Assembly: GCF_000685235.1 (NCBI RefSeq)
Contig: NZ_ARYH01000002.1
Coordinates: 310,001 to 374,000, forward strand
DNA from: Hyphomonas adhaerens MHS-3
Lineage (GTDB): Bacteria; Pseudomonadota; Alphaproteobacteria; Caulobacterales; Hyphomonadaceae
Direction: 5' to 3'
DNA: 64,000 bases
The notes under the pieces were generated by a model, which had not been told where the DNA came from, ran no database searches, and saw nothing but the letters and a program-made list of their open reading frames with translations. Shown piece by piece: positions 1,775 to 5,986 of this stretch; positions within the stretch are counted from its first letter, which is position 1, and every line of letters starts with the position of its first letter. Position numbers and translations under genes: made by a program.

Positions 1775-2304
1775 CACTGATCTCCATCCAGAGGATAAGC
1801 CTCATCCGCAGCAGGTGCAGGTTCCGAGGCAGCCCCGGATTCCCCGCCGCCATTTCCGCCGCCTGAGGCAAATGATGCAAACAGGGTCAACAGATCCACG
1901 CTGCCGCGGGTATATTGGATTTCGCCTGAGCCATCCTGCGGAATATTGTCAAAGCTGCCACCGGGCTCCAGAGCCACATAGGCACCGCCCAGCAGCCCAT
2001 CTGTCGAAATGCGCGCATCCGTGTCCTCTGGCAGCTGCCATTTCTTGTCCAGGCTCATCGTCATGACAGCTTCGAAGCGCTTGGGGTCACCTTCAATGGC
2101 TTTGACCACGCCAGCCTTCACACCTGCGATTCGAACGTCGGACCCGCGCTCGATGCCGCTGATATTATTGAAGCGGGCTTCGAGTTCGTACCTGTCCGGT
2201 CCTGCGGAGGCTTTCCCGCCGCGCGCGATGGCGAACCAGAGGAAAACACCGGCGACAACGACGACAATCGCACCAACCAGGGTTTCAAACATCGACTCAC
2301 GCAT
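1774..2304 (-). CDS. mlaD: MlaD-family MCE protein (phospholipid trafficking)
   Basis: Inner-membrane anchored substrate-binding subunit of the Mla system, which moves phospholipids between inner and outer membrane. The 176-residue protein has one N-terminal transmembrane helix (about residues 9-27), then a single MCE domain with FNNISGIERGSDVRIAGVK and STDGLLGGAYVALEPGG, and a Gly/Ser/Ala-rich tail. The start ATG 2304 overlaps the ndufA12 stop by 8 bases; an upstream in-frame start would run through that gene. The partners mlaE and mlaF are not in this window. Confidence 0.88.
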   Translation of the reverse strand: MRESMFETLVGAIVVVVAGVFLWFAIARGGKASAGPDRYELEARFNNISGIERGSDVRIAGVKAGVVKAIEGDPKRFEAVMTMSLDKKWQLPEDTDARISTDGLLGGAYVALEPGGSFDNIPQDGSGEIQYTRGSVDLLTLFASFASGGGNGGGESGAASEPAPAADEAYPLDGDQ

Positions 2305-2689
2305 CAGGAGACCACGCTTCGTAGTCGCCAGTTGCCTTCTGACGGTGACCACCACCAGACAGGCTCCCCTTGGGCTTGGTTGCCCAAGGTGTACCGGTCA
2401 TGTTCGGTTTGTGATCGGTTTCCCAGTCCCGGCGCGTAAGTGGCGACTTGGTCGGCGCCTCATCAACGGTGTGGTGCAGCCATCCATGCCAGTCTGCCGG
2501 AACCTTGGACGGTTCTGCGAGGCCCTTGTACATCACATAACGGCGGCGGCGGCCTTCGAGTGAGGGCTTGCGTTCCTCAAAGTAACGGTTGCCGTATTCG
2601 TCGGTGCCGACGAATGTGGAGCGTCGCCCGATATCGAACGCTGCGCCGAGCGTGTGGCCGCTCCACCAGGTAAAGAGTTGCTTCAGCAT
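2297..2689 (-). CDS. NDUFA12-type accessory subunit of NADH:ubiquinone oxidoreductase
   Basis: Homologue of the mitochondrial complex I subunit NDUFA12 (B17.2), an accessory subunit at the junction of the matrix arm and the membrane, found in Alphaproteobacteria. The 130-residue protein reads MLKQLFTWWSG, then GTDEYGNRYFEER and RRRRYVMYKG, then WHGWLHHTVDEAP, all typical of the family. I chose ATG 2689 because family members begin here; the frame is open 12 residues further. It is separate from any nuo operon and heads the unit with mlaD and DUF2155. Confidence 0.9.
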   Translation of the reverse strand: MLKQLFTWWSGHTLGAAFDIGRRSTFVGTDEYGNRYFEERKPSLEGRRRRYVMYKGLAEPSKVPADWHGWLHHTVDEAPTKSPLTRRDWETDHKPNMTGTPWATKPKGSLSGGGHRQKATGDYEAWSPDA

Positions 2690-2879
2690 CGTATGGCCTG
2701 TCCTGCCGTGAGTTGATGTCCGCAATATGGCGGCTCAGGGGCAACTAATCCATACCGCCGCCGCAGGCAATGCGCCGCAATTTCCCTCATGCTTAAGAGA
2801 CCGTGGTTGTTGCGCAGCGCTTGCCCCGAAGGGGTTCAAGGGTCACGCTGGTCCGAGTGATTCGCTGGGGAGATATGGC

Positions 2880-5150
2880 ATGGACGATATGCGTATAACG
2901 GAAATCCTGACTGCAGCCGTATCGGATGGCTTGCTGTCGGAACCGGCTTCGCTTTCCGAGATGTTCAGAGGTGCGGGAAGACAGCGCAGACCGCTGACTC
3001 CCGAATCGCTCAAGGCAACGACCGCCGCATACTCTGCCGCCGCACTGGTCAGCGTCTCCCAATTGGCTTCAGCGGAGATTCTCGAGCGGTTCGGGGACGC
3101 TCCCCTGAATGCCGACCTCGCTGAAGCGCTTGCTGCAGGTTTACCTCAGGATGTGCTGGAAGAAGCCCTCAGACAGCCAGGAGGGTTCCAACGCACCGCC
3201 GACGCCCTGCGTGCTGCAGCTGTGAGCGCAGCCGCCCCCGCACCAGCGGTTTTCCAGCCCGAAACGCTTGATCCGGTTCTGGAGCAGCTACTGGTCGAAT
3301 CCATGCGCGAAGGTGCGGAGATCATCCTGACCCATGAGGTGATGCCTGCCGCCGGCACAACAGCGCGCATCGTTGATGTCGCGATGGCTGTGGGACCTGA
3401 CGGGATTGAAGCAGACTATCTCTGCGAGGCGCTCGAAGCTGCGGCAGAAGAAATGACGGAGGGCGCGATCATCGTCGCCGGCCTGTCCGCTGCTGTCATG
3501 TCTTTGGGGATCGACTACGCGTCACCAGAGGGCAGCTCTGTCGCAGCCGCTCTTTGTTCGCTTGTCCGCTCGGGCGCCACCGGAGCGGCGTTCACAGCCT
3601 CACAGGCAAAGACACTGGGTCTTGAGCCGCGAAAGGCCTCAGGCAAGCGCACCTGCAGCGTGCTTTTGCTACCAGTTGCGGATCTGGGTGCCTTCCTCCC
3701 CGATTGCGAAAGCCACGGCACAGCTCCGCTCGCGACCGTGCTGGCATACGGAGATGAAAGCCCAACCCTTTCGCGCGCCGGACGCCTCGGTATTGCCCAT
3801 CACGCGCCAGAACGCCTGCCCATGGCTTTGGAACGGATCGCGGAGTCCGGCGAATCTGACCTCGATCGAGCGCTGGGTCTGGATCGGCTTCGGGATCGCG
3901 GCTTTACCGATGTTGCGCTCGACAAGGTTTCCCGTGCGCTGGGTGAAGGCCTGCCCTTGAACGCCGCATTCTCGCGCTGGGTGCTGGGCGACGAAATCAT
4001 TTCGACCGATCTCAAGCTCGCGCCGGAAGAATTCGACGCGGATGGTGGTGGGCTCCTCTCTGCCATCGGGTTTTCGCGCAAGGATATCCAGACGGCTGAA
4101 ACAACCATCTCAGGCGAATACGGAGATGCCACCGCCGACATCATGGCTGATTGCGGCCTTCAGGTTGGCGCCTCTCCGGAAGCGGAAATCGAATTCGCCA
4201 CTGCGTGCGCCAAAGCCCTCGGCGGAAATGTTGTGGTCTCTGTCGACGGACGTGGCGGACTGGATATGGCTGAAACGGCGCTCGCTGCTGGCTTGTCGGT
4301 TCAACTGATTGGACATCGCGCACCGCCCAATGATGACGTGCGTGACCGCATGGAGCACATCACAGCCCTGGCAGAAGAAATTGCCACGGAGGCGGACACA
4401 CCACCTGCGCTTTCCCAGAATGCCCTGTCAGCTGAGGGAGCTGCCCGCACGCGCCTGCCGGACCGCCGCAAGGGCTACATCCAGAAAGCATCGGTCGGAG
4501 GGCACAAAGTCTACCTGCACACCGGGGAGTTCGAAGATGGCTCACTGGGTGAAATCTTCATCGACATGCACAAGGAAGGCGCCGCTTTCCGAAGCCTGAT
4601 GAACAATTTCGCGATCGCAACCTCCATCGGCCTTCAATACGGCGTGCCGTTGGAAGAATTTGTCGATGCCTTTGTGTTCACCCGGTTCGAACCGGCAGGG
4701 GCCGTCACCGGCAATGACCGCATTACGCGCGCAACATCGATTCTGGATTACATCTTCCGGGAACTGGCCGTTTCGTACCTCGGCCGTGATGACCTGGCCG
4801 AAGTCGATGTCACGCACGATGGCCTCGGACGAGGCGAAGGAGATGGAACCCGAACCGAGCCAGCCCCCTTCACCGAGGAAGCGGCCCAGATCATTTCCCG
4901 CGGCTTTTCGCGGGGCCAATTGCCGGACAATATCGTGATCCTTGACCGGAAAAGAGCTCAGAAACTGGCCGATGAGGAAGCTGAAGCTGCAGAAGTTGCA
5001 GCAGAAGTCGAAGAATCGGAAGATCTCAATGCGCCAGACTACCTTGGTGACGCCTGTCCGGTTTGCGGAAGTTTCACGCTGTTCGAGATAAGCGAAGACG
5101 GCGACATCGAGTGCGATACCTGTGGCGAGGAATCCCGGAAACATAGGTAA
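2880..5150 (+). CDS. NrdJ-derived TSCPD-domain protein, probable ribonucleotide reductase pseudoenzyme
   Basis: A 756-residue protein whose residues 526-644 closely match the C-terminal domain of alphaproteobacterial class II (B12) ribonucleotide reductase NrdJ ([52 protein letters not shown]). It ends in a two-CxxC ribbon (Cys726/729/745/748), also as in NrdJ. From about residue 150 to 510 the protein appears colinear with NrdJ but eroded: [12 protein letters not shown] (207) matches the MTMGIAYDSPEG region, PVADLG (265) stands where PTGTIG is expected, and [10 protein letters not shown] (341) and AIGFSRKDI (395) also align. The NPCSE active-site motif is absent. The start ATG 2880 has GGGGAG 7 bases upstream; the frame is open back to 2727. 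The alignment is from memory; catalysis is unlikely and the role is unknown. Confidence 0.75.
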
Positions 5151-5269
5151 TTCCGGCCGATTTCCGCACGACAAACGGTCATGGCAAATCTGCAACACCT
5201 GTGGCCATGAAACAGTGGTTACAGCTTGTTCAGTTTTGGCACGCAAAACAAAGCGGTATCCAAATAGGC

Positions 5270-5986
5270 ATGAACCGAGTTTTGCTCAGCCTTGCCACGC
5301 TTGCTTCTGCGACCGCTTTCGACGCGATCGCGCAGGAGACAGCTCAGCCGAGCCAGCCCGTCGCCTGGGCGCCGAGCTATGTCGGCTCATGCGGCGGGTG
5401 CAACCTTTCTGGACGCAATCTGACGGGATGGACGCTCAGCGGCGCAAATTACCGTGAAGCAAACCTCGAATACGCGTTCATGCGCGGAACACATGCCAAG
5501 GAAACCAATTTCGAAGGCATCCACGCGACCGGCGCAGACATGCGCGCTGCAATCCTTACGTCGGCCAAGCTATCGGGTGCCAATCTCGAGAACGCGCGCT
5601 TGCAGGCGGTTCAAGCATCTGGCGCCGAATTCAAGCAGAGCATACTTGTCGGCACCAATCTTCAGAAAGCCATGTTGGTCGGCGCGAATTTCGCCGCTGC
5701 GAACCTGGCGACAGCCTCTCTGGAAGGTGCTGACTTTTCTGGAGCGAACCTGTCCGGTGCTGACCTGAGCGGAACGATCATGATGTCCGCAATCTTCAAT
5801 GGCGCCAACCTGTCCTTGTCAAAATTCGATGGTGCCAATGTTCAGGGCGCCTCTTTCAAGGACGCCCGGTTCGTCGGCGCCAACCTGACCGGCCTCATCG
5901 GCTGGCGAGAGGCCAATTTCGAAGGCGCTTGCGCATCGAACAGCACGCTTCTTCCACTCGGCCTGCACTTGTCAGACTGCGAATAG
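5270..5986 (+). CDS. Secreted pentapeptide-repeat protein
   Basis: A 238-residue protein with a signal peptide (MNRVLLSLATLASATAFDAIAQ), a short CGGC-containing N-terminal segment, and then roughly 30 tandem A(N/D)LXX repeats (for example GADFSGANLSGADLSG) that should fold as a right-handed quadrilateral beta-helix. Two Cys near the start of the mature protein and two near the C-terminus could cap the helix by disulfides. The start at 5270 was chosen because it gives the clean signal peptide. The gene follows the NrdJ-like gene by 119 bases on the same strand, so co-transcription is possible. Function unknown. Confidence 0.8.
   Translation: MNRVLLSLATLASATAFDAIAQETAQPSQPVAWAPSYVGSCGGCNLSGRNLTGWTLSGANYREANLEYAFMRGTHAKETNFEGIHATGADMRAAILTSAKLSGANLENARLQAVQASGAEFKQSILVGTNLQKAMLVGANFAAANLATASLEGADFSGANLSGADLSGTIMMSAIFNGANLSLSKFDGANVQGASFKDARFVGANLTGLIGWREANFEGACASNSTLLPLGLHLSDCE

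Follow-up and report, generated by a model that had tools for sequence, protein, structure and literature searches.

A probable non-catalytic descendant of the class II ribonucleotide reductase NrdJ, with a conserved TSCPD domain, in Hyphomonas and other Caulobacterales

Results

We studied a gene at positions 2880..5150 (forward strand) of the window, which is the whole 64,000-nucleotide stretch of Hyphomonas adhaerens MHS-3 DNA that was analysed. The open frame encodes a protein of 756 amino acids that is an eroded orthologue of NrdJ, the class II ribonucleotide reductase (RNR). We consider it quite likely that this protein descends from NrdJ, has stayed at the nrdJ locus, and is no longer catalytic; that NrdJ had two functions; and that the TSCPD domain was kept while the reductase barrel decayed or disappeared. 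As far as sequence comparison can establish them, the orthology, the loss of catalytic and redox residues, the predicted fold, the purifying selection, and the recurrence of reduced forms are all well founded. The TSCPD domain is the recognizable common core of every surviving form that we found.

The gene and its homology to NrdJ

The earlier note described a long open gene with a ribosome-binding site. Indeed, GGGGAG at 2867..2872 (forward strand), read directly from the DNA, lies 7 nt before the ATG. (There is a second in-frame ATG upstream, at 2727; the alignment of relatives begins at about 2880.) The genome has no second match of the protein's kind. All 25 Hyphomonas genomes examined have a match, which contig ends split in two cases, and the close named relatives are mostly from Hyphomonas. 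Relatives are annotated as "TSCPD domain-containing protein", "hypothetical protein", or "ribonucleotide reductase."

The sole Pfam match above its cut-off in this protein is TSCPD (PF12637; residues 538-630, E = 2.5e-9, 37.8 bits, cut-off 22.8 bits). PF02867 (Ribonuc_red_lgC; cut-off 23.9 bits) did not match the protein at E up to 1, and a search of the protein's own genome with PF02867 gave nothing at the 2880-5150 locus. The NCBIfam model for NrdJ, PRK07562, matches the C-terminal part (E = 4e-92, 309.5 bits), short of its cut-off of 1737 bits. When profiles of 58 eroded relatives and six full NrdJ were compared, residues 164-756 aligned to 522-1269 with a probability of 100 and E = 1e-108. 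By these scores, the homology to NrdJ is well beyond chance. Both searches bear out the earlier note's proposal of an eroded class II RNR relative, and the alignment agrees with the colinearity it described from about residue 150. The note also called the N-terminal half "shortened or unrecognisable"; it is shortened, but it does not seem to be unrecognisable or unrelated. In a structure predicted from the eroded sequences only, residues 1-480 cover the whole RNR barrel in a shortened form, so the barrel fold is predicted to be retained. The TSCPD domain of the window's protein was modelled with pLDDT below 50.

All parts of the gene described here are on the forward strand. The shrunken barrel (2880..4409, residues 1-510) lacks the finger-loop motif. 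PVADLG (3672..3689, residues 265-270) stands in the position of PTGTIG. A conserved helical insert (3888..4100, residues 337-407) is dense in invariant columns across the 58 eroded relatives and has a weak match to 7b9p 749-826 (E = 0.04). The near-invariant TSCPD (IscU-like) domain, PF12637, spans 4446..4796 (residues 523-639). It is followed by a conserved 17-residue tail motif (4893..4943), which is common to full NrdJ and partly present in the SAR11-type protein (see below), and by a Zn ribbon (5055..5126) in which four structural cysteines are present and two redox cysteines are gone.

The locus is that of nrdJ. Upstream are genes for biotin carboxylase, leucyl/phenylalanyl-tRNA transferase, DUF2155, MlaD, and NDUFA12; downstream, a pentapeptide-repeat gene is accompanied by one for a class II tRNA synthetase, read here as aspS. 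In the window, the NDUFA12-family gene is at 2297..2725 (reverse strand) and is an upstream neighbour of both full and eroded nrdJ. The pentapeptide-repeat protein is encoded at 5201..5986 (forward strand), and such a gene lies downstream of many full and eroded nrdJ. We fetched and classified 60 loci of the order, picked to spread over genera: at least one of the shared upstream neighbours lies beside 44 of the 47 eroded genes and 9 of the 13 full nrdJ. Because the neighbours are the same as those of full nrdJ, the eroded gene is an orthologue that was altered in place rather than a stray copy. The pentapeptide-repeat gene (5201-5986) accompanies full and eroded nrdJ across families, and in one genome, G026, a TPP riboswitch is close to the locus (L069 1509-1636).

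Lost motifs and retained cysteines

Each of the 13 full NrdJ from the order carries both NPCSE and PTGTIG and has six cysteines in its tail. At all 47 eroded loci, as in the window, both motifs are absent and there are exactly four tail cysteines; the earlier note was right that the catalytic marks are gone. NPCSE is present at 61 of 80 named loci, with six cysteines in the last 60 residues (60 loci) or seven (one locus); 17 lack NPCSE and have four; and two that are cut at the 5' end have six.

We then compared alignment columns between 70 full NrdJ (13 from the order, plus the named ones whose frames exceed 1150 aa, 57 of 61) and 48 eroded sequences. The PTGTIG loop is present in 70/70 full NrdJ and absent from the window and the eroded loci of the order. 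The column of the radical cysteine (in the finger loop, N-x-C-x-E) holds a cysteine in 0/48 eroded sequences. Of five barrel columns checked where cysteine is conserved in full NrdJ, four have it in 0-1 of the 48 and the fifth in 10. At the tail, the four zinc columns are cysteine in 48/48 eroded sequences and the two redox columns in 0/48. (For the NrdJ of Stackebrandtia, the accessible text of PMC5704485 proposes Cys-920, 923, 936, and 939 as the zinc ligands and gives Cys-933 and 945 as the redox pair.) Neither NPC-x-E nor P[TS]GT[IL] occurs in any of 241 proteins (P0001-P0241: the window's protein and those listed by two homology searches). In the last 45 residues, 229 of these 241 have four cysteines, eight have five, one has six, one has two, and two have none. 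In length, the eroded protein falls some 430-510 residues short of full NrdJ from the order.

Conservation and selection

In the full set, 330 barrel columns are conserved at 95% or more, and only 4 of them stay so in the eroded set. In the TSCPD domain, 63 of 120 columns share one residue between the two sets, conserved in each at 95% or more. The mean identity of the four barrel parts is 0.63-0.74 in full NrdJ versus 0.21-0.30 in the eroded proteins. For the TSCPD domain, mean pairwise identity reaches 0.83 among the first 60 rows of the full set and 0.86 among the eroded proteins; for the tail it is 0.44 and 0.42. In the active enzymes compared, too, no region is under tighter constraint than the TSCPD domain. 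Judging from these alignments, conservation is inverted in the eroded proteins: the barrel decays and the TSCPD domain is kept.

Ratios of dN/dS (by the Nei-Gojobori method) agree, with the caveat that they are approximate because several pairs are near synonymous saturation and genomes are shared between pairs. Across 14 eroded pairs from Hyphomonas, dN/dS is 0-0.036 for the TSCPD domain, 0.044-0.221 for the barrel remnant (13 defined), and 0.009-0.149 for the tail (11 defined). Across seven pairs of full NrdJ, it is 0.012-0.055 for the TSCPD domain and 0.085-0.241 for the barrel (6 defined each). The ratios are far below 1 wherever they were defined, as expected if the gene is maintained and not decaying, which was the earlier note's view.

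These data bear on two other explanations. First, the gene could be a dispensable relic that is being lost. The divergence of the barrel fits with this, as does the fact that 12 of the order's 200 genomes have no TSCPD match. But we found no inner stops in the gene in 25 Hyphomonas genomes (two cut by contig ends), dN/dS is far below 1 in each defined region, the constraint on the TSCPD domain equals that in active enzymes, and the SAR11-type genomes keep the domain at sizes of about 1.0-1.5 Mb. Ordinary decay is therefore very improbable. Second, the protein could still be active, as an unorthodox reductase or some other enzyme built on the same barrel with different residues. The remnant is still under selection (dN/dS of 0.044-0.221) and its predicted fold is retained. 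But the radical cysteine column is without cysteine in 48/48 eroded sequences, barrel identity is just 21-30% across eroded families, and the SAR11-type form has no barrel, so we give this idea very little credence.

Distribution in the order and companion reductases

To judge from the names of relatives, the order is Caulobacterales, and family f2 is Caulobacteraceae, including Caulobacter. Of the order's 200 genomes, 188 have a TSCPD match. Some of these matches lie within a separate short class II RNR, which is the only TSCPD match in some genomes (G025 is one). Genus g11 (family f4) has no TSCPD match in 7/7 genomes of the set. Among the 60 loci, full NrdJ occurs in family f5 (10/10) and in genera g4 and g33 of f4; the eroded form occurs in f1, f2, and f3 and in genera g7, g21, and g25 of f4. 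The tree of the TSCPD domain requires two changes, and a single change is not rejected.

The earlier note expected the gene to co-occur with another RNR, and it does. An NrdA-type chain is present in all 41 genomes of the order set (class I was read from length and match pattern). NrdB was found in 40 of the 41; the match is weak in G032, and the genome where it was missed, G010, is 85% complete.

Could the eroded protein assist a class II reductase instead? Split reductases, NrdJa plus NrdJb, exist (accessible parts of PMC9669993 and PMC5704485), and the eroded protein resembles NrdJb in having an IscU-like domain and a Zn finger that are not part of a complete catalytic chain. Its TSCPD domain and Zn-ribbon tail might be lent in trans to a catalytic chain that has no tail, and there is a potential recipient in the window's genome: a class II-like RNR with a 582-aa frame and NPCGE that lacks the six-cysteine tail (G000:C4:49139-50536, L037). 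But a separate class II-like RNR is present in just 8 of 25 Hyphomonas genomes; in the other 17, no other class II-like catalytic RNR, and so no NrdJa-like partner, was seen (G009 has only a fragment, in a 109-aa frame). Also, the tail redox pair is gone in 48/48, leaving four tail cysteines, while the accessible text of PMC5704485 states that activity with TCEP required all six. Unlike NrdJb, the eroded protein has a fused barrel remnant (the SAR11-type form is without it). A helper of this kind is very unlikely.

Reduced forms beyond the order

We searched 143 genomes of the class for the TSCPD domain and found matches in 93. Of these, 86 are in frames of 1028-1364 aa, which were classed by length alone (some may be cut by contig ends), and seven are in shorter frames. 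Two of the seven are from Caulobacterales. The others are in G216 (301 aa), G281 (278), G227 (530), G325 (565), and G282 (667); besides G281, these are four more reduced genomes, in three other families. All five reduced genes are next to nrdJ neighbours, and all five genomes encode an NrdA-type chain. (G216 has an additional RNR chain, with an 854-aa frame.) The frames of 530-667 aa are half-reduced NrdJ from other alphaproteobacterial lineages (L265 and L266 from G227 and G325; L267 from G282), and their proteins should be useful as intermediates. The TSCPD domain is more divergent in these three genomes (42-53% identity), so the constraint on it differs between lineages.

G281 has a one-contig genome of 1.21 Mb with a stand-alone TSCPD protein at L264 7391-8224, at the nrdJ locus. 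(For its family, f76, the locus position was checked in this genome.) Two "Candidatus Pelagibacter" proteins that are named ribonucleotide reductase share 87-90% identity with this protein; the names suggest that f76, and f115 from the same order, are SAR11 families. The 120 relatives listed for it are 266-283 aa long, and 120/120 lack NPC and the Zn ribbon. For every second one of these, mean identity is 0.93 in the TSCPD domain, 0.66 in the N-terminal linker, and 0.78 in the tail. The TSCPD-only protein was found in 56 of 60 f76 genomes (once in two pieces), which are about 1.0-1.5 Mb in size, and was unmatched in four.

The two families differ in their reductases. In f76, an NrdA-type chain is the only RNR found in 37 of 40 genomes; none was found in the other three, which still carry the stand-alone TSCPD protein. 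In f115, 17 of 18 genomes have NrdJ and no NrdA, and no RNR was found in one. The TSCPD domain lies inside NrdJ frames of 1196-1216 aa in 17 f115 genomes and in a fragment in the 18th. Within one order, then, the only RNR found swaps from NrdJ (f115) to an NrdA-type chain (f76). This reductase switch left the TSCPD domain in place.

NrdR-box-like pairs and the possibility of regulation

We compared upstream regions to an NrdR consensus. Matches of 13-16 out of 16 were found at 11 of 11 nrdA or nrdB loci scanned (15 were fetched), and none of three short class II loci had a match of at least 12/16. Upstream of nrdJ, we asked for two boxes 30-34 nt apart with p ≤ 0.033 (60 shuffles each, with a floor of 0.016). 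Such pairs precede 21 of 61 nrdJ loci, where about two are expected by chance, although related genomes are not independent. By group, the counts are 10/11 in f2, 6/14 in f3, 3/9 in the rest of f1, 1/9 in f4, and 1/10 in f5. There were no pairs in the window or at seven other Hyphomonas loci (0/8). Full nrdJ account for 2 of the 21 positives (2 of 13 loci). Mainly for Caulobacteraceae, these motifs suggest that the gene is connected with the RNR regulon. The pairs before the eroded gene in that family hint at a link between the protein and dNTP or DNA metabolism, which we consider somewhat less likely than not.

Does the eroded protein regulate the reductase? The shrunken barrel or the TSCPD domain could bind NrdA (or NrdB) and adjust how active it is, or how it oligomerises, according to the dNTPs present. 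This would fit with the NrdA-type chain in 41/41 genomes of the order set and all five reduced-form genomes, and with the NrdR-box-like pairs at 10/11 loci of Caulobacteraceae. Also, according to the accessible part of PMC5704485, the cysteine-rich C-terminal domain of another NrdJ mediates dATP- or dGTP-induced oligomers. On the other hand, the part that has diverged most is the barrel, where the dimer contacts of an RNR would lie, and a close relative of this TSCPD domain is within the NrdJ of f115, where genomes had no NrdA that we could find (17/18). Since the TSCPD domain occurs in f115 without any NrdA that we could find, its original partner is unlikely to have been NrdA. We consider regulation of NrdAB possible as a derived role and unlikely as the ancestral one; as an explanation for the eroded protein, it is improbable, though less so than the other alternatives. 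Similarly, the earlier note's suggestion that the protein pairs with or regulates the reductase is disfavoured by the pattern of change: the barrel decays, the TSCPD domain is kept, and the SAR11-type order keeps that domain with NrdJ or NrdA alike.

Discussion

We favour the explanation that the eroded protein is a non-catalytic descendant of a two-function NrdJ. Alphaproteobacterial NrdJ most likely combines a ribonucleotide-reducing barrel with a C-terminal TSCPD domain that has a function of its own under strong selection. Where dNTPs could come from class I NrdAB, the active site of the barrel would have been lost and the barrel would have shrunk, as in Caulobacterales (Hyphomonas and Caulobacter). 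In the SAR11-type family, the barrel would have vanished, with the TSCPD domain retained. We infer that the TSCPD domain serves for docking or oligomerisation by binding to a conserved partner, whichever RNR is used, and that in Caulobacterales the barrel remnant and the Zn ribbon form its scaffold. We lean towards the view that its function is conserved and unrelated to making deoxyribonucleotides, and that the dead-barrel or stand-alone form is kept in Caulobacter and SAR11 once a class I RNR does the reducing. The split-NrdJb, decay, and new-enzyme readings fit worse.

The closest known system is NrdJ itself (PRK07562; 7b9p and 7b9q from R. sphaeroides). The eroded protein shares its locus, its predicted barrel, the insert, the TSCPD domain, and the Zn ribbon, and is colinear with it from residue 164, but it lacks NPCSE, PTGTIG, almost all of the conserved barrel cysteines, and the tail redox pair. 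Some herpesviruses have catalytically dead R1 homologues, in which an RNR large subunit is kept for a non-catalytic role. Unlike the eroded NrdJ, these are viral relatives of class I enzymes, and a different part is retained. Stand-alone TSCPD proteins are also present in Firmicutes (TIGR03905); these are short and have the domain outside of an RNR. We know of no orthology between them and the nrdJ locus. In the literature searched, we found no description of a dead NrdJ. The accessible parts of PMC9669993 and PMC5704485 describe a C-terminal extension of class II RNRs, an alpha+beta domain followed by a Zn finger, and treat this tail as part of the active enzyme; in the eroded forms, by contrast, two redox cysteines are gone and the catalytic domain is dead or absent. 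In the accessible text of PMC9669993, the role of the IscU-like domain, which is probably Pfam's TSCPD, is given as not yet reported. The retention of this domain without its RNR by streamlined marine bacteria hints at a second job, and its function is open to direct test in Caulobacter, a genetic model.

In Caulobacter the label of the gene is B12-dependent ribonucleotide reductase, and in the SAR11-type group it is ribonucleotide reductase, but these genes do not appear to encode reductases. For instance, CCNA_01966 from C. crescentus, which we equate by name with the eroded gene of Caulobacter, is listed as NrdJ in the accessible part of PMC6538847, with B12 use in nucleotide reduction and dNTP production. 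Because the labelled genes appear not to encode reductases, inferences of this kind about B12 use for dNTP synthesis would need correcting. A protein from a metagenome-assembled genome named Caulobacter vibrioides (P0123) is 884 aa long, has neither NPCSE nor PTGTIG, and has four tail cysteines.
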